Shown: positions 20,902 to 63,259 of the stretch, piece by piece
How positions within the stretch are numbered: position 1 is the stretch's first letter
Layout: every line of letters starts with the position of its first letter
Assembly (NCBI GenBank): GCA_021372615.1
Contig: JAJFUB010000004.1
Location: 1 to 64,000, forward strand
Direction: 5' to 3'
DNA: 64,000 nucleotides
DNA from: a bacterium
GTDB taxonomy: Bacteria; Armatimonadota; Zipacnadia; Zipacnadales; UBA11051
Program-made: the position numbers and the translations under genes
Notes under the pieces: model-generated
Databases searched by the model: none
Seen by the model: the letters and a program-made list of their open reading frames with translations, nothing else
Told to the model about the DNA's origin: nothing

Positions 20902-21056
20902 ACCCCCTGACAGGCGCGGGGAGGGGACCTGCGCCCCAAACGGCGAATACCTACCCTCGGTAGTCGGTTACTGGACCGCCGGGCTGGCGACGCCTGCTCG
21001 CCGTGCCCCGGTCGTGCGGGTGACGCGAGCCCGCAGTGACCGCGCAGGAGGGTCAG

Positions 21057-23009
21057 ATGAGTGCGCCACGCACCCAACTCCTCGTCAGCCTGGCGATCGG
21101 CATAGCCGCGGCAGCCATGGTGGTGTACGTATGCTCCGACAGCATGCGCACCAGCCTCCTCGGTCGTCTGTGCTGGCGCCTGGAGTTGGTGACGTACGAC
21201 TTCCGTGCTGCCAACAGCGCTCCCGACGCCCCCAACCCCGACATCGTTCTGGTCACCATAGATGAGCTGTCGCTGTCGCAGCTGGGCGTCTGGCCCTGGT
21301 CGCGGGAGTACCACGCCCGGACCATCCGCAACCTGACCCGGGCCGGAGCCGCCCTGATCGGTCTGGACGTGATCGTGAGCACGGTCAGTGGCGAAGCGTC
21401 TGCCGAAACGGCCGCGGCCAACCAACCCCTGGGCTGGGAGCCGCCGCTGAGTGCGGCGGACCTCGCCCTGGAGCGGGCCCTGGCCGCCAGCGGGCGGACG
21501 GTCCTGGCCGCCAACATCACCCAGGAGAGCCTCCCGGGCCAGCAGATGGACGCCAGCCTCACCCAGGCGCAGTTCCCCCACTGGCGCTTCGAGGATGCGG
21601 CCCTGGGCACCGGCCTGATCGGCATGCTGCAAGACGATGACGGGGTGATCCGCCGGTCCCGCATCAGCCGCACCTATCAGGACGAGCAGCTCTTCACCAT
21701 GCCTGTGGTCCTGGCGGCGCTCAAGCGGGGCGTGGAGCCGTCCCAGGTCGCCGGGCAGGTCGCCCGGGGCGCCGGCCTTCGCTCGGGCGCCCTCGATCCC
21801 AGCTTCCTCGTCTCCTTCCGCACGCCGGACCGAGGGTTCACCCGCATCCCCTACTACCGCGTGCTGCGCGGCCAGTTCTCCAGGCAGGACGTCCGGGGGA
21901 AGATCGTGCTCATCGGGGCCACCGCACAGACGCTGCAAGACTCCCACAACACCCCCCTGGCCATGCGTATCCGCACCTCGCCGACCTCCGGGCCCACCAG
22001 CAGCAGGCTTTCCGGAGTGGAGATCATCGCCGACGCCCTGGATACCATCCTCCGGGGCTCATACACACGCCGCGCGTCCGGCGGACTGACGCTGATCCTG
22101 GCCTGCCTCATCGGGGCCCTGGTGACGCTGGTCGAGATGCGGGTGCGACCCGTATGGGCTGCCCTCGCGGCCTGGCTGCCCTCACAGGTCGGCTCCCTGG
22201 TGTTCGTCCTGGTGATGTGGCAGTTCTACCGGCTCTGGGTCCCGTTGATCCCCCTGGCGCTCACCGGCTCGCTCAGCTACGTGGGCGTGCTCGTCTACCT
22301 GGAGCTGACCAGTGAGCGGCAGCGCCGCAAGCTCCATCAGTCCTGGTCCCAACGCGTCTCGCCAGAGGTGCTGCAGGTCATTCTCAGTAACCCCGCGATG
22401 ACCCAGGTAGCGGGCAAGAAACTGCAGGCCACGGTACTCTTCACCGACCTGCAGGGCTTCACCACCTTCTGTCACGCGTCACCGCCTGAAGTCGTCGTCG
22501 AGAACCTGAACCGCTGCCTGGCCCTCATCACGGGCTGCATCCGCCGGCACGGCGGCACGGTGCACAAGTTCATCGGTGATGGTGTCATGGCTGTCTTTGG
22601 CGACCCGGTACAGCAGCCTGACCACGCCATGCGGGCCATCCGCTCCGCTTGCGACATGCAGCAAGAGATGGAACGCCTGCGCGCCAACCTCGACGCGGAC
22701 GCCTGGGTCCCCAACCTGCGCGTAGGCATCCACACGGGCGAGCTGGTTGCCGGGGACATCGGGTCAGGTGAGATGTTCGAGTACACGGTCATCGGGGATA
22801 CCGTGAGCACCGCCTCACGCTTGGAAGGCCTCAACAAGGAGTACGGGACGGGCATCATGATCAGCGACGCCACCCTCCAGGCCGCCGGCGAGGGCGTCCC
22901 GTGCCGACGGCTGGGCCTGGCCGAGATCCGCGGCCGCCCCGAGCCCATGGAAGTGTTTGGAGTGGACCCCTGGAAGCCGATAATAGTACAAAACACTACC
23001 ACTTCGTGA
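21057..23009 (+). CDS. CHASE2-domain class III adenylate cyclase-like protein
   Basis: This 650-aa membrane protein has an N-terminal TM, an extracytoplasmic CHASE2 sensor domain (about 30-320, with ELVTYDFRAANS and IDELSLSQLGVWPWSREYHA), two or three TM helices (342-418) and a cytoplasmic class III cyclase domain (about 455-640). Metal-binding D464 (FTDLQGF) and D508 (FIGDG) are present, as are K504 and T577 of the adenine-selecting positions and catalytic R588. The transition-state Asn is Ser584 (GDTVSTASR rather than GDTVN), which could lower activity. AGGAGG lies 5 bases before the ATG. The next gene encodes a FecR-domain protein, a recurrent partner of CHASE2 proteins. Confidence 0.9.
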   Translation: MSAPRTQLLVSLAIGIAAAAMVVYVCSDSMRTSLLGRLCWRLELVTYDFRAANSAPDAPNPDIVLVTIDELSLSQLGVWPWSREYHARTIRNLTRAGAALIGLDVIVSTVSGEASAETAAANQPLGWEPPLSAADLALERALAASGRTVLAANITQESLPGQQMDASLTQAQFPHWRFEDAALGTGLIGMLQDDDGVIRRSRISRTYQDEQLFTMPVVLAALKRGVEPSQVAGQVARGAGLRSGALDPSFLVSFRTPDRGFTRIPYYRVLRGQFSRQDVRGKIVLIGATAQTLQDSHNTPLAMRIRTSPTSGPTSSRLSGVEIIADALDTILRGSYTRRASGGLTLILACLIGALVTLVEMRVRPVWAALAAWLPSQVGSLVFVLVMWQFYRLWVPLIPLALTGSLSYVGVLVYLELTSERQRRKLHQSWSQRVSPEVLQVILSNPAMTQVAGKKLQATVLFTDLQGFTTFCHASPPEVVVENLNRCLALITGCIRRHGGTVHKFIGDGVMAVFGDPVQQPDHAMRAIRSACDMQQEMERLRANLDADAWVPNLRVGIHTGELVAGDIGSGEMFEYTVIGDTVSTASRLEGLNKEYGTGIMISDATLQAAGEGVPCRRLGLAEIRGRPEPMEVFGVDPWKPIIVQNTTTS

Positions 23010-23105
23010 AAGCCACCGGGGAGACCGGCCGAGGCAGTGACGCACAGGCTGTCCTGTGCCCGCCATCACCTCAGCGTGGTTTCGTTGTCTCAGGAGGTCC
23101 GCCGG

Positions 23106-25097
23106 ATGAGCATCCCCCGGAAGTCACTGGCTACACCCATCGCAGTTCTGGTCCTGGGGGTGTTGCTGTCCGCCGGGTCGGTCGGTGTCGGGTGGGCTGA
23201 AGCGACCGCGCGGTTCACCGCGGTCGTCGGTGGGGTCACCTACCAGGCCGGCGCTCAGGGGGGCTGGCAGGGCGCCAGGGCGGGCACGCCACTCGCCAGC
23301 GGCTCCCGTATCCGGACCGACCGCCGCGGCAAGTGCGAGATCAAGTTCCCGGGGGGCAGTCTCGTGCGGATGCCCTCGCGCGCCGACCTCGTGCTGACCT
23401 CGGTGACCCAGAACCGCGTTCGGCTCCTGAGCGGGCAGGTCCTGACCAACGCCGTCAAGGGCTCGGGCGTGCGGATCGAGGGCGCGACGGCTGCCGCGAG
23501 CGTTCAGGGCACCTGGGTGCTGTTCAACGGCGAGGACATGTCGGTCTGGGACGGCACTGCCACGCTGGAGACGCCCGCTGGCAAGCAGCAGGTGGGCGAC
23601 CAGCAACATGCGGCTGTCACGGACACGCAGGTGGCGCTCGTGGGCGCGGACGATCAGGCCTACGGCGACGTCACCGTCGCCCTGACGGCCAGCCAGCTCA
23701 CAGTCACCTTCCACACCACCGCGCCCTGGGCCCTGGAACGGACGGCCGTGGCGGTGAGCACCTCGCCACCCGAGCAGTTCGACCTCGCCGCCCCGAAGTA
23801 CGATCACCCCCATGTCGCTGCCACGACCGACGAGCACGTGATACCTCTGGCCGACCTCCAGGTCGCGGAGTCTGAGGCCCTGTACCTGGTCGCGTACGCG
23901 CTGCTGGCGAACGAGGAGCCGAGCGTGGACAAGGTCGCGGCCTGGGGTGAGGGCGAGGCGATCGCGTCGGGCGGGATGTACTTCGTCTACGCGCCGGCCG
24001 CCACCGGCTCGGAGTACCCCTGGGAGTTCCCGACCGGGGCCGCCAAGCCATGGTGGTACGGCATGCAGCCGGGCGTGAGCACCGTCGCCACGCCGGGCAC
24101 CAGCATCGGGATGGAGATGCGCGACGACCGCTTCTCCTCCTACGATGCCCTCCGCCGCACCATGTTCGGGGCCCCTCCCCATGGCCGGCTCGAGGTCGGC
24201 GTGGAGAGCCTCGGCGCGGCCCCGGCGGCCGCCTCCGCCGGTCCGGGCGCCATGCCCCTGATCTGGGCCCTCAGCGCCGCCGCGGCTGAAGAGCCCACGG
24301 GGGTCCGTCGCTTGGGCAAGCACTTCTTCGGCCCCCGCAGCCAACTCGACCTCTACGGGCTCCTCGTCTCCGGTGGAGGCTTGGCCGGAGGCCGGGCGCG
24401 CATGGCCGGAGTGTACGGCCCGGTCTACATGGAGCTGGGCGGGGAGTTGAGCACCGCCTTCGACGGTGAGTGGGACGCCGACGTGAGCGAAGCCTTCGCT
24501 GTCTGGCGCCACGACAGTCTGGACCTGATCGCGGGCCGGCAGCACTACCTCGAAGGCCCGGTCAACAACGGGCCTCTCGGCTCACAGTTCGCCTATCTGT
24601 CCCTGGATGGCATCCGCGCCCGCTACCAGGGCCGCGGGTTCGCCCTCGACGGCGTGTGGATAGACAAGTACGAGCGGGGGCTCGTGGAGCCGGGCGACGG
24701 CGCCGGCTGGCTGGGCCGGCTGAGCGCCCCCGTGCTCGGGGGGCAGGTCGCAGTCAACGTCCTCAAGGAGCACGGGGCGGACACCGGCCTGAGCCTGGAC
24801 TTCAGCCTCCCCGCCGCCCCCGGCTACCTGGACGTCTACGGCGAGTTCGGCCAGGACCCGTGGGACCAGCACTTCGAGACCTGGGGGCTCTACTCCCCGT
24901 GGCTGTTTGACCGCAGCGGCGTGGACCTGTTCGTGGAATACGCTCGCCGGGATGGCTACCCGCATTCTATCTCCGCGATGGCCTACAAGGATCTGGCGGA
25001 GGACTGGTATGGTCTGGCCGGGTTCCGGCAGGTGGAGGGTGAGGACTGCGAGCTATCCATCGGCGTGGCCTGGCGGTTCGGCGCTCTGGCGAAGTGA
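23106..25097 (+). CDS. Exported FecR-domain protein with C-terminal barrel-like region
   Basis: This 663-aa protein has a signal peptide (ending VGVGWA, about residue 31). A FecR-type domain follows (about 35-160: GAQGGWQGARAGTPLASGSRIRTDRRGKCEIKFPGGSLVRM). The middle segment has unclear homology, and the C-terminal half (about 420-663) alternates aromatic and small residues and ends in WRF, as in outer-membrane beta-barrels. AGGAGGT lies 7 bases before the ATG at 23106. It follows the CHASE2 cyclase by 96 bases and probably belongs to one signalling unit in which the envelope protein presents a signal to the cyclase. That function is inferred. Confidence 0.85.
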   Translation: MSIPRKSLATPIAVLVLGVLLSAGSVGVGWAEATARFTAVVGGVTYQAGAQGGWQGARAGTPLASGSRIRTDRRGKCEIKFPGGSLVRMPSRADLVLTSVTQNRVRLLSGQVLTNAVKGSGVRIEGATAAASVQGTWVLFNGEDMSVWDGTATLETPAGKQQVGDQQHAAVTDTQVALVGADDQAYGDVTVALTASQLTVTFHTTAPWALERTAVAVSTSPPEQFDLAAPKYDHPHVAATTDEHVIPLADLQVAESEALYLVAYALLANEEPSVDKVAAWGEGEAIASGGMYFVYAPAATGSEYPWEFPTGAAKPWWYGMQPGVSTVATPGTSIGMEMRDDRFSSYDALRRTMFGAPPHGRLEVGVESLGAAPAAASAGPGAMPLIWALSAAAAEEPTGVRRLGKHFFGPRSQLDLYGLLVSGGGLAGGRARMAGVYGPVYMELGGELSTAFDGEWDADVSEAFAVWRHDSLDLIAGRQHYLEGPVNNGPLGSQFAYLSLDGIRARYQGRGFALDGVWIDKYERGLVEPGDGAGWLGRLSAPVLGGQVAVNVLKEHGADTGLSLDFSLPAAPGYLDVYGEFGQDPWDQHFETWGLYSPWLFDRSGVDLFVEYARRDGYPHSISAMAYKDLAEDWYGLAGFRQVEGEDCELSIGVAWRFGALAK

Positions 25098-25144
25098 TCC
25101 CGTGCGCCAGCAATTCATCCATCTGTTCCTGAAGGAGGAACGAC

Positions 25145-26110
25145 ATGGGTAGGTCGGTACAGGTGTCTATCTTGCTGCTCCTGGGGGTGGTGGTTGTGCT
25201 CGCCGGTTGTGGGGGCGGCTCAAACGCCGGGGCAAGCGGCGGCATGATCGTCTCAGTGATCTTCCCCACGCGGCCTGCGGGTGTGGTGCCCGAAGCGCTC
25301 CCCGTGGCCACCAACAGCGTGCGCGTCCAGGTACTCGTGCCGGGCGTCCTGACGCCCATCGTGCCGGACCAGGTCCTCGCCCGCTCCGGTGAGGGCCCCC
25401 AGACAGCCACCTTCGAGGTCGTCCCGGTGGGGCCGTGCCTGGTGCGAGCGCTGGCATACGAGTCCTACGACGGCACCGGGCGGGTCATCGCGCAGGCCGA
25501 GGTGCTCACCGCCATTGCTGCCGGAGAGCTGACCCAGGTCTCCCTCATCACCGAAGCCCTGGTCGTGCGCCTCGAGGTCACCCCGGCCACGCTGGGCCTG
25601 GACTACCTCGCCAGCGCCGCGCTCACCGCCACGTGCTATGACGCAGACAACAACGTCGTCCTGGCCACGGTCACCTGGGATTCCAGCAGCGCCAGCGTGA
25701 CAGTGGCGGCCGACGGCACGGTCACCGGAGCGAGCGAAGGCTCTGCGGTGGTGAGGGCCACCCACGCCGCTTCCAGTCTGTCGGACACTTGTGATGTGAC
25801 GGTCACTCGCCGGCACGTCGCCCGGGTGGTCGTCACGCCCAGCAGTTGCGTGTTGCGGCCCCCCGATCAGTTCCAGACCCAGCTCACGGCCGTCGCCTAT
25901 GATGCCGCAGGCGTCGTCGTCCCGTACGCGGTCATCACCTGGTCCTCAGACGGCGAGCCGGTCGTCACCGTGGACCAGAACGGACTGGTGAGCACGACCT
26001 CGGCCGACAACACCCACGCCATCATCACCGCCAGCGCGGGTGAAGGGACGGATGGCACCTGCGACGTCCGCGTGGCGCCTGTAGGCAAGCTCATCGTGGA
26101 CGTCCGGTAG
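25145..26110 (+). CDS. Lipoprotein with bacterial Ig-like (Big_2-type) domains
   Basis: This 321-aa protein has a textbook lipobox (VVLAGC, Cys near residue 21). About 120 residues follow that may form one domain. Two Ig-like domains come next (about 140-225 and 230-315), each with the pattern V-x-V-T-P ... A-T-C-Y-D ... T-W ... G-x-V ... A-S-S/A-G-E-G ... C-D-V. Such domains act as surface or periplasmic spacers and adhesion modules. AAGGAGGAA directly precedes the ATG. It is the last gene before the strong hairpin at 26157-26192, so it closes the CHASE2/FecR operon. Confidence 0.85.
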   Translation: MGRSVQVSILLLLGVVVVLAGCGGGSNAGASGGMIVSVIFPTRPAGVVPEALPVATNSVRVQVLVPGVLTPIVPDQVLARSGEGPQTATFEVVPVGPCLVRALAYESYDGTGRVIAQAEVLTAIAAGELTQVSLITEALVVRLEVTPATLGLDYLASAALTATCYDADNNVVLATVTWDSSSASVTVAADGTVTGASEGSAVVRATHAASSLSDTCDVTVTRRHVARVVVTPSSCVLRPPDQFQTQLTAVAYDAAGVVVPYAVITWSSDGEPVVTVDQNGLVSTTSADNTHAIITASAGEGTDGTCDVRVAPVGKLIVDVR

Positions 26111-31527: not shown

Positions 31528-31721
31528 CGGCGCTACGGGATGCTGCCCTACCCGCTCCTGCGCTCCTTGAACCGACCATGAGGGCTGCTCCAGGCGTCCT
31601 TGAGGGTCCTGCGGTACACTCCTCACGGCGGATTGGCGGCGTCTGCCCATGTTCCCGCATGGTCAGCGCCCGTCGCTGCGGCGCACCCACTGCGCCAGTA
31701 CGATCCGTATGGGGAAGGACG

Positions 31722-32180
31722 ATGAGCCGGAAGCTCCTCAGCAGCCTTTTGGGCAAGCCCGACAGTGCGCCGGACGTCAGCGACGACGCCTCGCCGGCTG
31801 ACGCCCCGGAGGAACGCCTGCCAGACGAAGCCCCGATACAGGAGATACCCACTATGGCCGATTCCGCTCTGTTCGTGGACGTGCTGCAAGAAGAGGGCCA
31901 CAACTCGTTCTGCGTGGCCTTCAACGCCGGCGGGATCACGCGCGAACGTCTGCACGACCTGCTGGAGAGGATCGAGTCGGAGGTGGAGGCCATTGACCCG
32001 CAGGGCCAACTGGACATTGGCATCGTGGAGACGCTGCGCACGCGCGAGTTGCGCGTGACCATCACGGGCCAGGACGCGGGCAACGCCCTCGTGGGGTTGG
32101 GCCTGGTCCTGCGCCGCATGAAGGAAGCAGGCTTCGAGACCCGCTGGCCCGCCGCCCTCGACCCCACCAGGCTGGCCTGA
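31722..32180 (+). CDS. Orphan 152-aa cytoplasmic protein
   Basis: I do not recognise this protein. It begins with a short amphipathic stretch (RKLLSSLLG) followed by an acidic, Pro/Ala/Asp-rich linker to about residue 44. A compact alpha/beta region (about 47-145) follows, with alternating strands and helices (SFCVAFNAGGITRERLHDLLERIESEVEAI ... RELRVTITGQDAGNALVGLGLVLRRMKEAGFE). No signal peptide or TM is present. AAGGA lies a few bases before the ATG. The gene converges on the 2,114-aa NTPase-TPR-Ig gene with a family B hairpin between the stops. Any functional link to that protein is speculative. Confidence 0.75.
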   Translation: MSRKLLSSLLGKPDSAPDVSDDASPADAPEERLPDEAPIQEIPTMADSALFVDVLQEEGHNSFCVAFNAGGITRERLHDLLERIESEVEAIDPQGQLDIGIVETLRTRELRVTITGQDAGNALVGLGLVLRRMKEAGFETRWPAALDPTRLA

Positions 32181-32253: not shown

Positions 32254-35200
32254 TCAGGAGCCGCCGGGAGAGACGTCGCCGTCCGTGTGTCGCTCGGATA
32301 TGAGGCGGGCCAGGCGTTCGCGGATCACGGGCACCTGGTCCGAGGGCTGCGGCGGGGGTTCGGTGGCCGAGGCCCGGATCGTGACAGCCGCTGAAGACAC
32401 GCGCCCTTCGCCGTAGGTGGCGGTGACCTTCCCGATGTCCGTGCAGTCCCCCGCCGTGAGCTGCCCTGGCGCGCTGATCTCGCCCGACCGCGGATCCCCC
32501 TTCCACCGCCATTCCGCCTGACCGGTCACATCCTCGAGGAGCTGTTTGCCCTTGGTGTCCCGACCGCGCCGCAACAGCCCGCCCAGCCCCCCACCCTTGG
32601 CCGGCTTACCCACCTCGTACTCCAGCAGCAGGCGGAACACCTGGGTCATGCCCGCCTCCAGGATGATCTCATCCCCCGGCTCCAGGTGGAGCGCCACCAG
32701 TCGCCTGACCTCGATGACACCGCTGGCGGCCGTCTGGTTCTTGTAGCTGGCCGTCACTGTCGCCTGGCCAGACCACTCAGCGGCCGTGGTCAACAGGGCC
32801 CCGCGCGACATCCACCCGCTGCCGTCCGGCCCCGTCCACTCCCACGTCGCCAGCGCCGTCACATCCTCCGTGTAGCCGTCGCCGTACTCGGCGGTGACGG
32901 AGAACTGGCAGGTCTCGCCCGCAGTCAGCGTGCACCCCTCTGCTGGAGAGACGTGCAGCGCCACCAGGCTCCGCACCAGGATGTGCCCGGACTCGTCGCT
33001 GTTGCCGGCGTAGGTGACGACCACCTTGCCCTCGCCGGAGTTCGGCCCGGCCGTGAGAATGCCCGGCGCCGTGATCGCGCCCGTGCCCTCCGGCCCGGTC
33101 CAGCTCCACTCCGCCTCGTTGGTCGCATTGCCCAGCGTACCGTCGGTGTACTTGAGCGCCGCCGAGAAGCGCTGCATCTCGCCCGGCTCCAGGTACAGCA
33201 CCTCGGAGGGCATCAGCACCAGCAGCGCGATGTTGGAGATCTCCACCGGCTCGGAGTAGGCCTCCTGGGTCTCGAACATCGCCACGATCTTGCCGGTCCC
33301 GCAGCCCTCGCCCGCCGTGAACAGACCATCCGGGTCGAGCGTGCCGGCCGCCTTGTCCCCCTGCCAGCGCCACGTCACGCCCTCGGTGATCTCCTCTTCC
33401 TCGCCCGACGGGTGCTGCAACGCCGCCCGCAGCCGCACCGACTGCCCGGCGCACAGCACCACCGGCTCCGTGGGGCGCACCACCAGCCACGCCGGCTCGC
33501 GGACCGTGATCTCATCCGAAGTAACGCGCCATTGCTCGTAGGTTGCGACGACCTGCCCGACACCGGCGGCCTCGCCGGCGGCGAGGAGCCCTTCCGCACT
33601 GACCGTCACGGCTTCCGCCGCGCCCGTCCACTCCCAGGTGGCCTGTGCCGTCACGTCCTCGGTCTCCCCATCGGTGTAGCGCAGCAGCGCGGTCAGTTGC
33701 GCTGTGGCCCCAATGGTTATCGGCGTCGCCGGCACCTGGTTGAGCTCGAGTCCCGCAGTGTTGCGGACGGCGATGTCGTCTGACGCAACGCTCCACTCGC
33801 CGTATGTCGCGCGGACCTGCCCGACGCCACACCCCTCGCCCGCAGTGAACAGCCCTTCGGCACTGACCGCCCCGGCCTCTGCCGCACCCGCCCATTCCCA
33901 GACGGCCTGCTCGGTCACATCCTCCGTCGTGCCATCGCCGTACCTCAGCAGCGCCATCAGCTGCACGGTAGCCCCGGCCGACAGTGCCGTCGCCGGGACG
34001 TCACTCAGTTCCAGCCCCACAACATTACTGACGGTGACCTCACCGGAGACGGCTCGCCACTCGCCGTACGTCGCCAGCACCTGCCCGACGCCACAGCCCT
34101 CGCCCGCAGTGAACAGCCCCTCGGCACTGACCGCCCCGACTGCCACCTCGCCCCTCCACTCCCACGTCGCCTCTGTCGTCACATCCTCCGTCGTGCCATC
34201 GCCGTAGCGCAGCAGCGCCGCCAACTGCACGGTGGCCCCTGCCGACAGCGCTGTCGCCGGCACAGCGCTCAGCTCCAACCCCACGACATTGCTAACAGTG
34301 ATCTCGCCGGAAAAGACCCGCCACTCGCCGTACGTGGCGAGGACCTGCCCGACGGCACAGCCCTCGCCCGCAGTGAACAGCCCCTCGGCACTGACCGCCC
34401 CGCCCTCGGCCGCGCCAGTCCACTCCCACGTCGCCTCTGCCGTCACATCCTCCGTCGTGTCGTCGCCGTACCGCAGCAGCGCCGCCAACTGCACCGTCGC
34501 CCCGGCCGACAGGGCCGCTGCCGGCACCGGGCTCAACTCCAGCCCCACCACGTTGCTAACAGTGATCTCGCCGGAGAAGACTCGCCATTCGCCGTACGTC
34601 GCGAGGACCTGCCCGACGCCGCACCCCTCGCCTGCGGTGAAGACACCCTCCGCGCTCACAGCCCCGACCGCCGCCTCGCCCCGCCACTCCCACGTCGCTT
34701 CTGTTGTCACATCTTCGGTCGCGCCGTCGCCGTACCGCAGCAGCGCCGCCAACTGCACCGTCGCCCCGGCCGACAGCGCCGCTGCCGGCACCGGGCTCAA
34801 CTCCAGCCCCACCACGTTGCTGACAGTGATCTCACCGGAGAAGACGCGCCAGTCGCCGTACGCCGCCAGGACCTGCCCGCTGCCGCACCCCTCGCCTGCA
34901 GTGAACAGCCCCTCGGCACTGACCGCCCCCGCCTCTGCCGCACCCGTCCATGCCCAGACGGCTTGCTCGGTCACGTCCTCCGTCGTGTCATCGCCGTACC
35001 GCAGCAGGGCCGCCAACTGGACCGTCGCCCCTGCCGACAGCGCCGTCGCCGGCACCGGACTCAGTTCCAGCCCCGCCACGTTGCTGACAGTGATCTCACC
35101 GGAGACGGCCCGCCACTCGCCGTACGTCGCCAGGACCTGCCCGACACCGCAGCCCTCGCCGGCGGTGAAGACACCCTCCGCGCTGATCGCCCCGACGACC

Positions 35201-38200
35201 GCCTCGCCTCGCCACTCCCACGTCGCCTGCGCCGTCACGTCTTGCGTCGTGTCGTCGCCGTACCGCAGCGAGGCCATCAGCTGCACGGTAGCCCCGGCCG
35301 ACAGCGCCGTCGCCGGGACGGGGCTCAGCTCCAACCCCACGACATTGCTAACGGTGATCTCACCAGAGAGGACCCGCCACTCGCCGTACGTCGCCAGCAC
35401 CTGCCCGACGCCACACCCCTCGCCTGCGGTGAAGACACCCTCCGCGCTGATCGCCCCGGCCTCGGCCGCGCCAGTCCATTGCCAGACGGCCTGCTCGGTC
35501 ACGTCCTCGGTCGTGCCGTCGCCATAGCGCAGCCGGGCCGCCAACTGGACCGTCGCCCCCGCCGACAGCGCCGCCGTCGGCACGCCACTCAGCTCCAGCC
35601 CGACAACGTTGCTGACAGTGATGTCACCGGAGAAGACGCACCACTCGCCGTACGTGGCGAGAACCTGCCCCACACCGCAGCCCTCGCCGGCGGTGAAGAC
35701 ACCCTCCGCGCTGATCGCCCCGACGGCCGCCTCGCCTCGCCACTCCCACGTCGCCTGCGCCGTCACGTCTTGCGTCGCGTCGTCGCCGTACCGCAACAGC
35801 GCCGCCAACTGCACGGTCGCCCCTGCCGACAGCCCCGTCGCCGGCACCGGACTCAGTTCCAGCCCCACCGCATTGCGGACGGTGATGTCACCCGACGTGA
35901 CTCGCCACTGCTCGTAGCTGGCGACGATCAGTCCGACGCCGCATCCCTCGCCTGCGGTGAAGAGACCGTCCGCGGTGACAGTGCCCGCCGCTTCGTCACC
36001 CGTCCACTCCCAGGTGGCCTGCCCGGTCACATCCTCCGTCGTGCCATCGTCGTACTGCGCCACTGCCGCGAACTGCACCCGCTCGCCCGCCTGCAGCACT
36101 GCGGTCGCCGGGGGCGACAGGGCGATCCCGACGAGTTGCGCCTCCGGCTCCTCCTCCGACAAGGGCCGGCTGAGGACCGCGTCCGCGCCCTGCTGCTGTA
36201 GCTCATCGAGCTGGGAGATGAATGAGGAGGCCGGAAGCGCGCGTCCGGCGATCACGCTGTCAATCTTGGCCGACGTCGCGGCACACAGCCGGGCTTCGCG
36301 GCGGGCCCGTCCGTCCGCCTCACTCACCGCGCCGCTGTCGTGCAGCGAGACCGCGATGACCAGGAGCGCCTCCCACAGGCGAGCTCTGTCGCGCGGGGGC
36401 AGATCGTCGCTCAGGCCGCGGTGGAGCGCGGTCGCGGCTTCCATGAAGCCGACGAGGTCGTCCTGGCCCAGTGCCGCGCGGCTACGGGCCAACCAGAGCA
36501 AGCCCCAGCCGCTGCCATCGCCGAGGGCCAGGGCCGCTTCCGCGGCGCGGCGCTGGGCACGCGGCCGGCCGAGCACTCCGGCGATCTCAGCCGCCAGCAG
36601 ATGCGTCGCCACGCTGCCCCCGTGTGCCGCCTCGAGAGCGCCCAACGTCTCCCAGGCGTCTTCCGCGCGGTCCTGATCGCGCAGGCAGCGGGCCATCTGC
36701 AGTTGCGCGGCTGCGTCGTCGGCGGCGACCGCGATGACCCGCCGCAGCTCCTCTTCCTCGCGCGCGAAGTCGCCCATCTCACAGAGGGCTTCGGCCAGCT
36801 CGCGCCGGGCCTCCCATGCGGTCGGCGTGTCCTTCAGGCATCGCTCCAGCTCGTGGGCGGCGTGGCTGTACGCCCGCACTTCCGAAAAGCCGCGGGCAAT
36901 CGCCCGCCGCGCCTGCTCCGCCGACACGCCGGCCCGGACCGCCCGGTCCGCTTGACTACGGGCCGCGTCCACGGCCCCCAGTTGCAGGTGAGCCACGGCC
37001 ACTCCGGCGTAGAGCGAGGCGTCGGTTGGGTTCTGTGAGAGCGCCGCCTCGAACAGGCGCAGCGCCGCGCGCGGGGCGCCGATCTTCAGATGAACGCGGC
37101 CCAGATGCCGGACCGCCGCGGCGGTCAGCTCCTGGTCCTCAATCGCCGCCTTGTAGCTGGCAATGGCGGCCTCGTAGTCCTGGCACTCCTCGTGCAGCAG
37201 GCCCAGCAAGAACGACGTCTGGGGCAGCAGCGGACGGGCCTGCGGAGCGGCGGCGCGCGCCGCCTCCCAGTCGCCCTGCCGCGCGTGCAGCAGCGACACG
37301 CTGTACTGCCCGCACGTGCGGTAGAAGTGATCCTCAGCGAGACAGGTCGCCAGATCCAGGGCGAGGTCCGTCTGTCCGGCTGCGAACGTCGCCTGCAGCC
37401 GCAGGGCCAGCTCCGGCGCATAGCTGCCAGGTTCGGCCGGCTCGTCGGCATCCAGACCCGCCACTTGCCGGGCCATCTGCCAGGCCAGCCCGACGGGGTC
37501 CGCGACCGACCGCGACGCCCCTGCCGCCCCGCGCTGCGCGATCTCCCCCCGCGCGACCTCGGTAGTCTGCGGCGTCAGCGCCAGGCGAGCGAGCAGTTGT
37601 GGCGCGAAGACCGCCTGGTCCCCGCGGGCGGCGTCCAGCAGGCGGACCAGCGCCCCCTGCACCTGCGACGCGTCCGGCTCCAGCGCCGCGAGTAGTTCGC
37701 AACAGATCTCGCTGTGTGGCGGGTAGAGCAGGGGTCCATCCAACCCGACGAGCCCGTCCGCCAGCCAGGCCTTGACGCGTCCCTCGTCTCCGTCGCCGGT
37801 GAGCAGGTCCTTGGGCACAGCCAACTCCGCCAGGCCCGCGAGCACTACGCCCAGCAGCCCCTCCTCCTGGCTCAGTCGGGGCAGTGCCTGGCGCTCCCAG
37901 CTGAACTCCGGGCGCACGGCCTGCTGCAGGCCCCGCACCGAGGCAAGCACGCCTGCCTCGACAGGGGAGGCCTGGACGGGGAGAGGGGAGGGGAGCTTGA
38001 CGCGCAGGGCCGCAGCCAGCCCCTTCGGGTCACCGGCGCGCGTGTCCACGGCATGGCGTACGCCCATGTCGCGCAGTGTCGCCGGTTGCAGCAGAGCCAG
38101 CCCGTCGAGGCCGCTGTCGCCGTCCTCCTCGGCCACTGTGGTCGTGCCGATGACCAGTATGTCGGCCCCGGCTCGATCAATCTCATACAGGATCGTCTCG

Positions 38201-38598
38201 GCTTCCGGACACAGGTGGATGTCGTCAATGAGGAGATACGCGCGGGAGCGCCGGCTGGCCTTGCCCAGGAGGTGATCCAGCGGCTCGGTTCCCAGGCCGG
38301 GCTGGTACAGGAAGACGGGGGACTTGCCGGCGGCCAGTTGGCGGCCCAGGCGCAGCAGGAGCGTGCTGCGGCCCGAGCCGGGACGTCCCGTCAGCAGGTG
38401 CAGGCCTCCGGCGGAGCCCTCCAGGGTCAGTTCGAGGAACAGGCCCTGGATGTCGCCGACGAACGCCTCCGCGTGGGCATCTATGTCGCCAGGCCGGGGG
38501 CGGGCGCCCTGCAGCAGCCAGTCGCCATCCGGCCTGCGACGCGGCGCGCGTCGCGGCAACTGCAGGAAGCCCCCGAGCAAGCTCGCACCGTAACTCAT
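32254..38598 (-). CDS. Giant P-loop NTPase-TPR protein with 14 Ig-like repeats
   Basis: This 2,114-aa protein has no signal peptide or TM. Residues about 45-380 form a P-loop NTPase module: Walker A-like GRPGSGRST (71-79), with Arg77 in place of the essential Lys; Walker B YLLIDDIHL (121-129); and a sensor-like VIGTTT (149-154). Residues about 395-720 are TPR-like helical repeats (for example ALRLFEAALSQNPTDASLYAGVAVAHLQLG). From residue 822 there are 14 Ig/Big-type repeats of 88 residues; repeats 2-9 are nearly identical, and repeat 14 carries an insert of about 20 residues rich in Gly, Arg and Lys. The ATG at 38598 starts MSYGASLL; its ribosome site is weak. The layout recalls STAND-type sensors, but Ig arrays are normally extracytoplasmic, and no known family was recognised. 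Confidence 0.85.
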   Translation of the reverse strand: MSYGASLLGGFLQLPRRAPRRRPDGDWLLQGARPRPGDIDAHAEAFVGDIQGLFLELTLEGSAGGLHLLTGRPGSGRSTLLLRLGRQLAAGKSPVFLYQPGLGTEPLDHLLGKASRRSRAYLLIDDIHLCPEAETILYEIDRAGADILVIGTTTVAEEDGDSGLDGLALLQPATLRDMGVRHAVDTRAGDPKGLAAALRVKLPSPLPVQASPVEAGVLASVRGLQQAVRPEFSWERQALPRLSQEEGLLGVVLAGLAELAVPKDLLTGDGDEGRVKAWLADGLVGLDGPLLYPPHSEICCELLAALEPDASQVQGALVRLLDAARGDQAVFAPQLLARLALTPQTTEVARGEIAQRGAAGASRSVADPVGLAWQMARQVAGLDADEPAEPGSYAPELALRLQATFAAGQTDLALDLATCLAEDHFYRTCGQYSVSLLHARQGDWEAARAAAPQARPLLPQTSFLLGLLHEECQDYEAAIASYKAAIEDQELTAAAVRHLGRVHLKIGAPRAALRLFEAALSQNPTDASLYAGVAVAHLQLGAVDAARSQADRAVRAGVSAEQARRAIARGFSEVRAYSHAAHELERCLKDTPTAWEARRELAEALCEMGDFAREEEELRRVIAVAADDAAAQLQMARCLRDQDRAEDAWETLGALEAAHGGSVATHLLAAEIAGVLGRPRAQRRAAEAALALGDGSGWGLLWLARSRAALGQDDLVGFMEAATALHRGLSDDLPPRDRARLWEALLVIAVSLHDSGAVSEADGRARREARLCAATSAKIDSVIAGRALPASSFISQLDELQQQGADAVLSRPLSEEEPEAQLVGIALSPPATAVLQAGERVQFAAVAQYDDGTTEDVTGQATWEWTGDEAAGTVTADGLFTAGEGCGVGLIVASYEQWRVTSGDITVRNAVGLELSPVPATGLSAGATVQLAALLRYGDDATQDVTAQATWEWRGEAAVGAISAEGVFTAGEGCGVGQVLATYGEWCVFSGDITVSNVVGLELSGVPTAALSAGATVQLAARLRYGDGTTEDVTEQAVWQWTGAAEAGAISAEGVFTAGEGCGVGQVLATYGEWRVLSGEITVSNVVGLELSPVPATALSAGATVQLMASLRYGDDTTQDVTAQATWEWRGEAVVGAISAEGVFTAGEGCGVGQVLATYGEWRAVSGEITVSNVAGLELSPVPATALSAGATVQLAALLRYGDDTTEDVTEQAVWAWTGAAEAGAVSAEGLFTAGEGCGSGQVLAAYGDWRVFSGEITVSNVVGLELSPVPAAALSAGATVQLAALLRYGDGATEDVTTEATWEWRGEAAVGAVSAEGVFTAGEGCGVGQVLATYGEWRVFSGEITVSNVVGLELSPVPAAALSAGATVQLAALLRYGDDTTEDVTAEATWEWTGAAEGGAVSAEGLFTAGEGCAVGQVLATYGEWRVFSGEITVSNVVGLELSAVPATALSAGATVQLAALLRYGDGTTEDVTTEATWEWRGEVAVGAVSAEGLFTAGEGCGVGQVLATYGEWRAVSGEVTVSNVVGLELSDVPATALSAGATVQLMALLRYGDGTTEDVTEQAVWEWAGAAEAGAVSAEGLFTAGEGCGVGQVRATYGEWSVASDDIAVRNTAGLELNQVPATPITIGATAQLTALLRYTDGETEDVTAQATWEWTGAAEAVTVSAEGLLAAGEAAGVGQVVATYEQWRVTSDEITVREPAWLVVRPTEPVVLCAGQSVRLRAALQHPSGEEEEITEGVTWRWQGDKAAGTLDPDGLFTAGEGCGTGKIVAMFETQEAYSEPVEISNIALLVLMPSEVLYLEPGEMQRFSAALKYTDGTLGNATNEAEWSWTGPEGTGAITAPGILTAGPNSGEGKVVVTYAGNSDESGHILVRSLVALHVSPAEGCTLTAGETCQFSVTAEYGDGYTEDVTALATWEWTGPDGSGWMSRGALLTTAAEWSGQATVTASYKNQTAASGVIEVRRLVALHLEPGDEIILEAGMTQVFRLLLEYEVGKPAKGGGLGGLLRRGRDTKGKQLLEDVTGQAEWRWKGDPRSGEISAPGQLTAGDCTDIGKVTATYGEGRVSSAAVTIRASATEPPPQPSDQVPVIRERLARLISERHTDGDVSPGGS
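32371..36135 (-). repeat. Tandem 264-bp coding repeats (14 Ig-like units)
   Basis: Fourteen in-frame units run from 36135 down to about 32371. Units 1-12 are exactly 88 codons (264 bp), unit 13 is 89 codons, and unit 14 is longer because of an insert. Units 2-9 (35871-33760) share nearly all residues (GLELS.VP...LSAGATVQL ... TAGEGCGVGQVLATYGEW), indicating recent duplication or gene conversion. Units 11-14 are older and more diverged. Confidence 0.9.
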
Positions 38599-38994
38599 GC
38601 TGCCAGATCACCGCAATGGTTGTTGTAGGGGGCGCAGGGCGTCAGCGGGCCAGGAAGGCGGGTGACGTGGGACCCTGTCCTTGGAGGGGGACCGTCCATC
38701 CTGGAGCCCCGTCCGGGGCCCGGGCGAGCCGGAGGCTTCCGGTCCTCCCCGGCGGCGATCGGCGTACCGATGCGGCCGCAGCACAGCTCGCAGCCAGACA
38801 GAATCGTCCTTCACCCCCGAGCATAGTATACCCGTAGGCCGCGACTGACGGTCAATGCGAACTCAAGGGGGGCGCAAGACCGGGGAAGGAACGTGCCTCA
38901 GCGACCGCTCGGGAGGAGGTCTTCACCGGCCCCGGGGACGAACCTGCTGCCGACACGCAGCCCCGCCTGTCGCGGGCAGCAGGAGTGACAGCCT
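38599..38994. other. Divergent intergenic region between the NTPase-TPR-Ig and phosphoesterase genes
   Basis: About 396 bases separate divergent starts. A promoter candidate for the minus-strand gene lies at 38825-38855, leaving a GC-rich leader of about 220 bases before the ATG at 38598. For the plus-strand phosphoesterase gene only the ribosome binding site near 38981 is clear. No additional gene is supported. Confidence 0.6.
38825..38855 (-). promoter_or_regulatory. Candidate promoter of the NTPase-TPR-Ig gene
   Basis: On the minus strand, TTGACC (38850-38855) and TATACT (38825-38830) are 5/6 matches to -35 and -10. The spacing is 19 bases, longer than the 17 optimum. It is the only AT-containing island in this GC-rich gap. 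Confidence 0.4.
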
Positions 38995-59399: not shown

Positions 59400-59680
59400 G
59401 TGCCTCACTACTCCCTCCATCTGCAGAATGGTGCTGCCGGGGTGTGCTCTGAGGCAGGGGACGTGTCATCCCTGGCCGGTACCCCCCAGTTCCCCGCGCA
59501 CCCATCACATACCTCGCGGCCGCCCCCTCCCCGGGCGGGCGCGGCAGGAGAAGCGTAGCGGGGGAGAGAAGCTCTACCATACGAGTCCCGCAACCGGCAA
59601 CTGCTCTGCGCACATCTGGAGCCGGACCGAGCGGGATGTCTGACCGGGGGCATGGCAGACGCAGATCGGGAGGGCTGGGC

Positions 59681-62600
59681 ATGGCTTCTCCTGTGGAGGC
59701 GGGCCTGGTGCGGATCGGGATCCTGCACTCCCTGACCGGCACCATGGCCATTAGCGAGCGGTCGCTGGTCGAGTCCGCCCTCGTCGCCGTGGACGAGATC
59801 AACCAGGCGGGCGGCCTCCTGGGCGCGCGAGTCGAGGCCGTGGCGGCTGATGGCGCCTCCACCCCTGCGACCTTCGCACTGCGGGCGCAGGAACTGCTCG
59901 ACGCGGGCGCCGTAGCCCTGTTCGGCTGCTGGACCTCGGCCTCGCGCAAGGCCGTCAAGCCGGTGGTGGAGGCCGCCGAATCCCTCCTGTGGTACCCGGT
60001 GCAGTATGAAGGGCTGGAGGAGAGCCCGCACATCGTCTACACCGGCAGTTGCCTCAACCAGCAGGTCACCCCGGCCGTGGCGTGGGCCACCGCCCAGTTC
60101 GGCCCCCGCGTGTTCCTGCTGGGCTCAGACTACGTCTTCCCTCGCACAGCCAACCGCCTGGTGCGCTCGCTGGTGGAGGACCCCGGTGACGGCGGGCGCA
60201 TTGTCGGCGAGGCATACGCCGGCCTGGGCGAGCAGGACTTCGCCGAGACGCTTCGCCAGATCGCCGAGCAGCGCCCGGACTTCGTCCTCAACACGCTCAA
60301 CGGCGACAGCAACCTCGCCTTCTACCGCCAGGCCCACGAGACCGGCCTGGACCCCGCGCACATCCCGGTCCTGGCAGTGAGTGTCGGTGAGACCGAGCTG
60401 CAGCCCCTCGCGCCGCTCGCCGCCGGCCACCTGGCGTGCTGGAGTTACTTCCAGAGCCTCGACAACCCCGAGAACCAGCACTTCGTCACGCGCTTCCGCG
60501 CCCGCTACGGCGCGGACCGTGTCTGCTCTGACCCGATGGTGATGGCCTACTGCCAGGTCCACCTGTGGCGGCAGGCGGTCGAGGCTGCCGGCGTGTTCGA
60601 CCCGTCCGTGGTCGCGCAGTGTGCGGCCGGGCAGAGCTTCACCGGCCCCGCCGGCGCCATCGTGGTCAACGCGAACCACCACGTGACCAAGCACGCGTAC
60701 GTGGGGCGCCTGCAGGGCGACGGCCAGTTCGAGATCGTCTGGCGCAGCCCCGAGCCCCTGAGGCCCCTGCCCTGGCTGGGCGTGGAGGACAGCGGGCTGC
60801 CCAACCAGGCGCTCATCCAGGAGGCCATGGCCAGCTACCCGGAGGCCCTGCACGCCGGCAGCCTCCTGCAGCAGGAGAACCGCGAGCGCCGGCGGGTCGA
60901 GGAGGCCTTGCGCGAGAGCGAGGAGCGCTTCCTGCTCGCCGTCCGCGGCACGGACGCGGGCATCTGGGACTGGGACCTGCGCACCAACAGAGTCTACTTC
61001 TCCCCCCGCTGGAAGAGCATGATCGGCTACGAGGAGGACGAGATCGCCGACGACTTCTCCGAGTGGGAGACGCGACTGCATCCCGACGACCGCGAGCGGG
61101 CCATGGCCACGGTCAGGGACTACCTGGAGGGCCGCACCCCCCAGTACGAACTCGAGCACCGCCTGCGCCATAAGGACGGCAGTTACCGCTGGATCCTGGC
61201 GCGCGGCGTCGCGGTGCGCGACGAAGCCGGACGGCCCTACCGCATGGCCGGCTCGCACCTGGACCTGAGCGTCCTCAAGCAGGTCCAGGCCGACCTGGAG
61301 CAGGCCAAGGAGGAGGCCGAGGCTGCCAGCCGCGCCAAGAGCGAGTTCCTGGCCAACATGAGCCACGAGATCCGGACGCCGATGAACGGCATCATCGGCA
61401 TGGTCGGGCTGGCCCTCGATACCGACCTCACGCCCGCCCAGCGGGAATACCTCACCCTGGCCTCGCAGTCTGCCGACACCCTCCTGCGTCTCCTGAACGA
61501 CATCCTCGACTTCTCCCGCGTGGAGGCCGGCAAGCTGGAACTCGTCCCCGCCCCCTTCGCCCTGCGCGAGTGCCTGGGCGACACCATGAAGACCCTCGGC
61601 CTGCGCGCGGCCAGCAAGGGCCTCGAGCTGGCGTGGCATGTCGCCCCGGAGGTCCCGGACGCGCTGTTCGGCGACGCGGGACGGGTTCGCCAGATCCTCG
61701 TCAACCTGACCGGCAATGCCATCAAGTTCACCGACCAGGGCGAGGTCGTCGTCCAGGTGGAGCAGCAGTTCCAGAGCCCCGAGCTGGTCGGTCTGCACTT
61801 CTCGGTGCGCGACACCGGCATCGGCATTGAGCGCGAGAAGCAGCAGGCCATCTTCGAGGCCTTCGTGCAGGCCGACGGGACGGCAACCCGGCGCTTCGAG
61901 GGGACCGGGCTGGGCCTCGCGATCTCCGCGCAGCTGGTGAAGCTCATGGGCGGCCGGGTCTGGGTCGAGAGCGATGCGGGCCGGGGCAGCACCTTCCACT
62001 TCTCGGTGACGCTGGGCCGCTGCGAAGAGCCGGCACAGGCAGAACCCGCGCCGTGGACCAAGCTCGCCGGCCTGCGCGTGCTCGTGGCCGATGACAATGC
62101 GACCAACCGGCGCATCCTCCAGGAGATGCTGCAGAGCTGGGAGATGAGGCCGGCCGTGGCCCACGACGGCCCCTCGGCGCTGGCGGAGGTGCAAGACGCG
62201 GTTGCCGCCGACGAGCCCTACCCGTTGGTGGTGCTGGATGCCATGATGCCCGGCATGGACGGGTTTGACCTGGCCGACGCGATCCGCCACACGCCGAGGA
62301 TGGCCGGCGCCACCCTCATCATGCTGTCCTCGGGCGCGCGCCCCGAGGGCGCCGCGCGCTGCCGGGAGATGGGCATCCAGGTGTATCTGATCAAGCCCGT
62401 CAAGCCCTCCGAGCTGCTCGCCGCCATTCTCGCGGCGCTGGTGGCCGACGCTGCCGTCGCGCCGGCGACCCCGGCCGGCGGCGCTGCCCCGGGGTCTCGC
62501 GCCGAGCGCCCGCTGCGCGTCCTGCTGGCCGAGGACAACATCGTCAACCGACGCCTGGCGGTCTGGATACTGGAGCAGCGCGGCCACAGCACTGTCGTCG

Positions 62601-63259
62601 TGACCAACGGCCACGAAGCCCTGGCGGCTCTGGCCCGGGAGCCCTTCGACGCCATCGTGATGGATGTCGAGATGCCGGAGATGGACGGCTTCCAGGCGAC
62701 CGCCGCCATCCGGGAGCAAGAGCGTGTGTCCGGCGGGCATGTGCCGATCATCGCCATGACAGCGCACGCCCTGGAGGGGGACCGCGAACGCTGCCTGCAG
62801 GCCGGCATGGATGGCTACATCGCCAAACCGCTGCGACCGGAGGACCTCGTTGCCCAGGTCGAGCAGAGCGTGGCCCCCGTGGCGCAGGTCCAGCCGGAGG
62901 CGGTCGCCGGCGCGGACGACCTTGTCGACGGCGACGCACTGTTGGCCCGGGTCAGCGGCAACCGCGCGGTGCTGCGAGAGCTGGTGGAGCTGCTCTTCGG
63001 CGACGCCCCGGGCCTGGTGTCGCAGGTCCGCGCCGCCGCCGTCGCCGGTGATGGCCCCGCCCTACAGCGCGCCGCGCACAGCCTCAAAGGCATGGTGGCC
63101 ACGTTCTGCGCGCCGCAAGCGCTGGCCGCGGCGCTGCGCCTGGAGGAAGCTGCCGCCGGCGACTTCAGTGCCGTGGAGCCGCTCTGTGCTCAGTTGGAGC
63201 GAGAGATCGAGCGCATGCGCCCTGCCCTCGTGGCACTCGGAGAGGAGAGACCGTCATGA
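59681..63259 (+). CDS. Hybrid histidine kinase with N-terminal urea/amide-binding domain
   Basis: This 1,192-aa protein begins with a UrtA/FmdD-type type I solute-binding domain (about 5-390; FGCWTSASRKAVKPVVEAAESLLWYPVQYEG is diagnostic). It has no signal peptide or TM, so it should sense a small amide, urea or related ligand in the cytoplasm. Then follow a PAS domain (about 412-530), a short coiled coil, HisKA with phospho-acceptor H562, HATPase (GTGLGLAIS near 742), REC1 (D853), REC2 (D995) and an Hpt domain with H1133. This is a complete intramolecular phosphorelay. The ATG at 59681 has GGGAGG 7 bases upstream and starts just before the sensor domain; 59636 is a weaker alternative. Its stop overlaps the next start (ATGA). 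Confidence 0.92.
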   Translation: MASPVEAGLVRIGILHSLTGTMAISERSLVESALVAVDEINQAGGLLGARVEAVAADGASTPATFALRAQELLDAGAVALFGCWTSASRKAVKPVVEAAESLLWYPVQYEGLEESPHIVYTGSCLNQQVTPAVAWATAQFGPRVFLLGSDYVFPRTANRLVRSLVEDPGDGGRIVGEAYAGLGEQDFAETLRQIAEQRPDFVLNTLNGDSNLAFYRQAHETGLDPAHIPVLAVSVGETELQPLAPLAAGHLACWSYFQSLDNPENQHFVTRFRARYGADRVCSDPMVMAYCQVHLWRQAVEAAGVFDPSVVAQCAAGQSFTGPAGAIVVNANHHVTKHAYVGRLQGDGQFEIVWRSPEPLRPLPWLGVEDSGLPNQALIQEAMASYPEALHAGSLLQQENRERRRVEEALRESEERFLLAVRGTDAGIWDWDLRTNRVYFSPRWKSMIGYEEDEIADDFSEWETRLHPDDRERAMATVRDYLEGRTPQYELEHRLRHKDGSYRWILARGVAVRDEAGRPYRMAGSHLDLSVLKQVQADLEQAKEEAEAASRAKSEFLANMSHEIRTPMNGIIGMVGLALDTDLTPAQREYLTLASQSADTLLRLLNDILDFSRVEAGKLELVPAPFALRECLGDTMKTLGLRAASKGLELAWHVAPEVPDALFGDAGRVRQILVNLTGNAIKFTDQGEVVVQVEQQFQSPELVGLHFSVRDTGIGIEREKQQAIFEAFVQADGTATRRFEGTGLGLAISAQLVKLMGGRVWVESDAGRGSTFHFSVTLGRCEEPAQAEPAPWTKLAGLRVLVADDNATNRRILQEMLQSWEMRPAVAHDGPSALAEVQDAVAADEPYPLVVLDAMMPGMDGFDLADAIRHTPRMAGATLIMLSSGARPEGAARCREMGIQVYLIKPVKPSELLAAILAALVADAAVAPATPAGGAAPGSRAERPLRVLLAEDNIVNRRLAVWILEQRGHSTVVVTNGHEALAALAREPFDAIVMDVEMPEMDGFQATAAIREQERVSGGHVPIIAMTAHALEGDRERCLQAGMDGYIAKPLRPEDLVAQVEQSVAPVAQVQPEAVAGADDLVDGDALLARVSGNRAVLRELVELLFGDAPGLVSQVRAAAVAGDGPALQRAAHSLKGMVATFCAPQALAAALRLEEAAAGDFSAVEPLCAQLEREIERMRPALVALGEERPS

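Follow-up and report, generated by a model that had tools for sequence, protein, structure and literature searches.

Closest described systems

Arrays of Big-type Ig domains are normally found outside the cell, and STAND proteins inside it. Among the latter, the closest described proteins are those of the nSTAND_NTPase5-TPR type (PF25199; SIR2-, TIR- and Mrr-nSTAND5 proteins). The protein analysed here (hereafter T), encoded in a 64,000-nucleotide stretch of Armatimonadota DNA (the window), shares with them the NTPase profile, the Walker B region, the winged-helix histidine and, usually, C-terminal TPRs, but has no N-terminal effector, contains a Walker A arginine and continues beyond the TPRs into 14 Big domains. 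The TPR-sensor STANDs MalT, PH0952 (6MFV) and AfsR likewise possess an NTPase, a winged helix, arm-like helices and TPRs; T differs from them in the absence of a DNA-binding effector, in its best profile match, which is to another NTPase family, and in the extra Ig array. MalT and AfsR are activated by ATP binding, not by hydrolysis (PMC10936776). Avs5 (SIR2-nSTAND3 with C-terminal repeats) resembles T in coupling a STAND NTPase to a TPR-type sensor (PMC12931631) but has a different NTPase family, a SIR2 effector and no Ig array. LigA and other bacterial Big_2 arrays match the repeats of T in fold and sequence profile; however, LigA is exported to the surface, whereas the array of T sits on a soluble NTPase-TPR head. 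Finally, the membrane NTPase-TPR paralogue G000:C121 (912 aa), homologous to T residues ~10-800 with 35% identity, has a 2-TM hairpin and conserved gene neighbours, and no array.

Domain architecture

The original prediction described a chain of 2,114 aa without a signal peptide or TM segment, in which a P-loop NTPase module is joined to TPR-like helices and 14 Ig/Big repeats, and all these elements are recovered (Table 1). The ORF has a coding-type codon composition, and a stop codon located a few codons upstream of the ATG indicates that there is no hidden N-terminal extension. By hydropathy, T and its orthologue (O) both begin without a signal or TM segment. An Rfam search of the window gave no match, and a promoter/terminator scan found none.

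Table 1. Features of the T gene and protein (window positions)
Feature	Position	Strand	Evidence
T, 2,114-aa NTPase-TPR-Big array protein	32254..38598	(-)	ORF; O, the orthologue from another genus, has this architecture too
Residues 1-48, soluble N-terminus; the aligned juxtamembrane segment of the paralogues directly follows their 2-TM hairpin	38455..38598	(-)	alignment and hydropathy
Residues 49-160, P-loop NTPase core, nSTAND_NTPase5-like	38119..38454	(-)	Pfam PF25199, 27.6 bits in T (cut-off 34); alpha/beta core in model
Walker A GRPGSGRST, residues 71-79, R77 in place of the usual Lys	38362..38388	(-)	alignments
Walker B LLIDD, residues 122-126	38221..38235	(-)	all 8 family members have D125 and D126
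Residues 212-306, helical and winged-helix-like region, invariant H295 (PPH motif)	37681..37965	(-)	predicted structure and alignment
TPR solenoid, residues 391-804	36187..37428	(-)	Pfam TPR_19, 4.4e-12; VIA match to OGT TPR domain
Residues 512-565, within the TPRs, where conservation across the family is highest	36904..37065	(-)	42-residue window with 13 invariant positions
Residues 820-1963, Big repeats 1-13 of 88 aa, of which 2-9 are nearly identical	32710..36141	(-)	periodicity, 3-repeat model, LigA match, dN/dS
Residues 1964-2074, last Big repeat (14), containing a conserved LGGL(L/F)RR insertion	32377..32709	(-)	insertion also present in the final repeat of O
C-terminal helix-like motif IRERLARLI, residues 2092-2100	32299..32325	(-)	IRQRLSRII at the same place in O

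The nSTAND_NTPase5 profile matches all eight family members (best 2.7e-10), some of which also match NACHT and nSTAND3. The paralogue (39.5 bits), the homologue from genome G004 (34.5 bits) and O (41.5 bits) all score above the Pfam cut-off of 34 bits; T alone falls below it (27.6-29.8 bits). The LLIDD motif of T conforms to the Walker B pattern hhhhDD. Profile, motif and homologue evidence backs the proposal that a STAND-type NTPase is here coupled to a repeat array. The Walker A motif departs from the consensus GxxxxGK[ST]: the alignment has arginine in 4 of 4 proteins of the two-genus clade that includes T (g1/g2) and lysine in the g3 homologues. This substitution makes hydrolysis doubtful, so that T is better described as an nSTAND_NTPase5 descendant than as a canonical catalytic STAND ATPase; the head probably binds ATP, with weak or absent hydrolysis, and the switch activity may have been lost together with the lysine. 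The NTPase begins at about residue 49, and no N-terminal effector domain precedes it.

The NTPase is followed by a winged helix with a conserved histidine: residues 263-306 form helices and a beta hairpin in the predicted model, and H295 is invariant in all nine proteins aligned, the SIR2-, TIR- and Mrr-nSTAND5 relatives included. Model confidence is moderate for the NTPase, with parts of 156-220 at pLDDT < 50. In Foldseek, the TPR-sensor STAND 6mfv appears with an E-value of 5e-7 but an rmsd of 25 A over the whole model, and the VIA list is filled by TPRs; the structural lists neither favour nor exclude particular NTPase families.

The TPRs of residues 391-804 represent the C-terminal superstructure-forming repeats that characterize STAND and nSTAND_NTPase5 proteins, and match the OGT TPR domain (VIA Z 24.8, rmsd 13.7 A over 374 residues). 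The density of invariant residues in the 512-565 stretch was equalled in only 1 of 2,000 permutations.

The Ig array

Exactly 14 repeats with an 88-aa period are present; 13 centres are precisely 88 aa apart, and the 14th repeat contains an insertion of ~23 aa. A three-repeat model is predicted with a pLDDT of 93.5 and has the Ig-like fold of the Big_2, LigA type. The best structural match is LigA 8gyr (VIA Z 14.6, rmsd 8.4 A over 171 residues, 26% identity), which also matches as a sequence profile (E 6e-16), and the Pfam Big_2 cut-off is not reached (14.6-15.2 versus 22.8 bits). By sequence, the array is a divergent, Big_2-like one. An origin of the array from other proteins of this type was rejected: a repeat-profile search found no carriers of such repeats other than T and O within the order and, across the phylum, just one more, a weaker match in genome G258 to a short ORF that starts like a lipoprotein. 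Repeats 2-9 are 76-90% identical, with a median dS of 0.62, dN of 0.10 and dN/dS of 0.16, which indicates that selection keeps them alike; this suggests a common binding surface, although selection for stable folding could also account for it. Each repeat contains about one cysteine, at a constant position across repeats 1-9, which is compatible with a reducing cytoplasm.

Homologues and origin

T has a single known orthologue, O, from a second genus, a protein of ~4,001 aa with the same fusion and ~34 repeats. T and O are 48-49% identical in the head and equally so (49%) in the C-terminal cap; thus, both ends are conserved while the length of the array differs. In the tree, T and O form a clade (100/100) that is sister to the two 900-aa paralogues (96/95). 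Homologues are present in all seven genomes of the taxonomic family, and the 900-aa forms start with a hydrophobic hairpin of two TMs, absent from T and O, followed by a basic segment, an arrangement that should place the NTPase of the membrane-anchored homologue in the cytoplasm. The ancestor of T and O is a ~900-aa membrane-anchored NTPase-TPR protein: its gene was duplicated before the two genera split, and the T lineage lost the hairpin and gained the array, the length of which differs between the two genera.

Beyond the taxonomic family, the NTPase is closest to those of SIR2-, TIR- and Mrr-nSTAND5 proteins, and among distant nSTAND5 relatives with SIR2_2, TIR or Mrr N-termini, TPR matches are found in three of four. 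Judging from these sequence relationships, the T/O head is a descendant of nSTAND_NTPase5-TPR proteins. The suggestion that T fits no nameable family therefore does not hold for its parts, given this descent and the ordinary Big_2/LigA-type fold of the repeats, but the combination is indeed unusual, as only two related genera of uncultured Armatimonadota were found to pair NTPase-TPR with an Ig array.

Proposed function

The reading we favour, with about an even chance of being correct, is that T is a cytoplasmic STAND-derived sensor or scaffold that originated from a duplicated membrane-anchored protein and acquired a multivalent Ig arm. An ancestral gene encoding a membrane-anchored protein with nSTAND5-type NTPase, winged helix and TPRs duplicated before the two genera diverged, one copy still lying beside a GT4 gene and the other losing its hairpin and gaining a C-terminal array of Big_2-type Ig domains. 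The head would bind nucleotide and, lacking the Walker A lysine, hydrolyse it weakly or not at all; it might be held closed by an NTPase-TPR contact, as in TPR-sensor STANDs, and the conserved TPR stretch could be a surface that contacts a partner or the NTPase. The near-identical Ig units would form a long arm displaying many copies of one binding surface, free to change in length between unchanged caps. Binding of a ligand by either the arm or the TPRs would make the heads open or cluster and, because no effector domain is attached, the output would be recruitment of partners via the TPRs or the conserved C-terminal helix. Several points weigh against this reading: the sub-threshold nSTAND_NTPase5 score of T itself, the Walker A substitution, the moderate model confidence in the NTPase and the large rmsd of the 6mfv alignment, the single known orthologue, and the fact that neither an effector nor a ligand nor a conserved neighbour was found. 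T is a natural fusion of a STAND protein with an Ig array whose origin can be reconstructed (duplication, anchor loss, array gain) and whose Ig units are kept alike by selection; it exemplifies the reuse of a STAND head in the absence of an effector and offers a concrete case for studying an intracellular Ig array together with a possibly hydrolysis-dead head. A more specific version, possible though rather unlikely, is a titin-like intracellular ruler and receptor, in which the head has turned into a non-hydrolysing, ATP-locked, partner-binding module and the Ig arm, its units kept alike, evolves in length between fixed caps.

A purely structural intracellular ruler or scaffold, with the NTPase a dead fold, the TPRs and the C-terminal helix each holding one partner and the array only setting their distance, is possible though rather unlikely. 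The Walker A change throughout the g1/g2 clade, the conservation of both ends despite 14 versus ~34 repeats and the lack of a detected effector or recurrent neighbour would all fit such a protein, but Walker B and H295 are retained, and selection on repeats 2-9 points, with the reservation noted above, to binding by the repeats themselves.

Genomic context and less probable readings

T is flanked by unrelated genes, divergent and convergent, whereas ACT and DUF711 genes lie upstream of O, and the two have no neighbours in common. The 900-aa form has conserved, non-defence neighbours; G000:C121 adjoins RdgB and GT4 genes, and an order-wide scan shows that the glycosyltransferase is conserved in the order, with the NTPase-TPR gene next to it only in this taxonomic family. 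An RND-type efflux set, by its look, is found 11-18 kb from T. The original prediction regarded the protein as a candidate for a new system; collection of homologues and their gene neighbours revealed neither a recurring neighbour of T nor a fused or adjacent effector in support of one, and T is best read as a new architecture within a known, STAND-derived kind.

The immune character of the closest NTPases outside the family, and the co-occurrence of Ig-like folds with TPRs in canu defence loci (PMC12799240), raise the possibility of an anti-phage STAND sensor that detects a phage protein through its Ig array. This is improbable, given that T has no effector domain, its homologues are family-wide with non-defence neighbours in the 900-aa form, and its repeats are held alike rather than diversified. 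In addition, no defence genes were recognised next to T or O, and PADLOC gave only weak P-loop and TPR matches, so a defence-island reading of the locus was rejected; a phage or plasmid origin was rejected as well, as no relatives were found in viral contigs or plasmids.

Type I-secreted adhesins carry Ig arrays and no signal peptides. An exported giant adhesin using a route of this kind, as the earlier suggestion of an unrecognised export route would imply, agrees with the best structural match of the repeats being the surface protein LigA. Export is disfavoured, and quite improbable, because the whole head, the first ~805 residues, shares homology with a membrane-anchored protein, the NTPase of which is expected in the cytoplasm; furthermore, T ends in a short conserved basic helix, and inspection of the window gene list by eye recognised no ABC-type exporter near T.

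Repeats are hard for short reads, and the window comes from a fragmented genome assembly; nevertheless, it is hardly credible that two genes were joined by misassembly or by chance, as feared at residues 720-822, because homologues align through residue ~805, across the supposed junction, the independently assembled genome of the other genus contains the same NTPase-TPR-repeat fusion with conserved cap order, and the longest exact DNA repeat is 54 bp in the T gene (22 bp in the O gene), which also makes the repeat count unlikely to be an assembly artefact.

Family composition and descent

The 2,114-aa protein (hereafter T) encoded by the ORF at 32254-38598 (-) was originally described as a P-loop NTPase with TPRs and an array of 14 Ig-like repeats that lacks a signal peptide or TM helix; this description holds, and the ORF is real. 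A family-wide search identifies relatives in 7 of the 7 genomes of the taxonomic family. The common form (890-912 aa) contains an N-terminal hydrophobic helix pair followed by the NTPase and TPRs, without Ig repeats. The gene order around it, RdgB/Ham1 – GT4 glycosyltransferase – NTPase-TPR, is conserved and is preceded in several genomes by an RNase PH-like gene (identified by eye). The rare form consists of T and its orthologue from a second genus (O), in which the same kind of head, devoid of TM helices, precedes the Ig array. O encompasses ~34 repeats and about 4,001 aa, a length joined across two contigs that overlap by over 100 bp, with the end of O on the other contig. In the tree, T and O group together (100/100), and their sister branch holds the 900-aa proteins from these two genomes (96/95); the duplication therefore predates the split of the two genera. 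Profile searches of 291 genomes of the phylum yield no further full match. The NTPase-TPR head and the Ig repeats are each of a known kind; their combination is found in only two genera among the genomes searched and is not described in the papers searched.

The O gene (G001:C13, L029) lies directly downstream of ACT and DUF711 genes. In the window genome (G000:C85, L121), a gene whose end resembles DUF711 has a Big_2 lipoprotein-like gene after it instead; this likeness may be due to chance.

The NTPase-TPR head

A profile search matches 8 of 8 family members to nSTAND_NTPase5 (best 2.7e-10), and some also to NACHT and nSTAND3. The Pfam cut-off of 34 bits is exceeded by O (41.5), the 900-aa paralogue (39.5) and the homologue from G004 (34.5), but not by T (27.6-29.8). 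The structure model of T includes an alpha/beta core (66-153), a winged-helix-like region (263-306) and a confident TPR solenoid; 156-220 is poorly predicted. TPRs dominate the Foldseek list, which includes the TPR-sensor STAND 6mfv (E 5e-7).

Most likely, with roughly even confidence, T is a cytoplasmic protein in which a STAND-derived partner-binding head carries a multivalent Ig arm. Its homology, architecture, evolutionary order and constraint are demonstrated; we infer its ligand, partner, nucleotide use and output. The main rival, a ruler with a dead NTPase, is considerably less probable. The Walker A Lys is replaced by Arg throughout the clade of the two genera, paralogues included. In RAD51, this substitution preserves ATP binding and blocks hydrolysis (PMC3155514), and the STAND activators MalT and AfsR require binding, not hydrolysis (PMC10936776), so that the head of T could, by analogy, be a locked switch.

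The most conserved 42-residue segment of the family starts at residue 512, inside the TPRs, and contains 13 invariant residues (1 in 2,000 permutations reaches this). In resting PH0952, a TPR-sensor STAND, a TPR repeat touches the NTPase (PMC6468293), which makes this segment a candidate for such a contact or for binding a partner.

Among the closest sequences in the rest of the phylum are four nSTAND5 proteins, two with SIR2, one with Mrr and one with TIR; TPR profiles match the SIR2 and Mrr proteins, and the winged-helix H295 of T is invariant in the alignment with all these relatives. An immune sensor appears improbable.

SIR2-, Mrr- and TIR-nSTAND5 proteins of other Armatimonadota (L114, L117, L118, L120), most with TPRs, are matched by PADLOC models in parts only and are probably STAND immune proteins.

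The Ig array

The best match of a three-repeat model of T (pLDDT 93.5) is to the variable region of LigA (Z 14.6, rmsd 8.4 A, 171 residues, 26% identity); the profile match has E 6e-16. Protein identity among repeats 2-9 is 76-90%, yet fourfold sites have diverged (median dS 0.62, dN 0.10, ratio 0.16), which points to older duplicates held alike by selection, beyond recent copying alone; gene conversion is a less likely contributor. Repeats 11-12 are positional orthologues of repeats 31-32 of O (55% identity), and the terminal repeats of both proteins have in common an LGGLxRR insertion, with a short helix-like motif after it. The ends are thus constant, and it is the middle whose length differs.

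Localization and genomic surroundings

In the 900-aa homologues, the N-terminal hydrophobic helices are followed by a basic segment, which under the positive-inside rule places the adjoining NTPase in the cytoplasm. Because T is this protein minus the anchor, a soluble cytoplasmic protein is the simplest reading. Export as an adhesin, to which the LigA similarity is relevant, is slightly less probable still than an immune role. A stop codon lies a few codons 5' of the ATG, leaving no in-frame hidden signal segment. The Cys placement (one at the same position in each of repeats 1-9, with a second in one repeat) suits a reducing compartment. The source assembly comprises 171 contigs (6.4 Mb). 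An assembly artefact is very improbable, as O has the same architecture.

Features of the T locus and other genes in the window
Positions	Strand	Feature
21036-26110	+	Consecutive genes for a CHASE2-adenylate/guanylate cyclase, a FecR-domain protein and a Big_2 lipoprotein
31629-32180	+	Small convergent gene just beyond the 3' end of T; no significant Pfam match; not seen beside O
32254-38598	-	T
38815-38860	-	Promoter-like pair TTGACC-19-TATACT, some 230-240 nt 5' of the T start; spacing outside the accepted range of the scan
59636-63259	+	1,207-aa protein; start resembles a urea/branched-chain amino acid binding protein, far longer overall

If the promoter-like pair is real, the T transcript would have a long leader.
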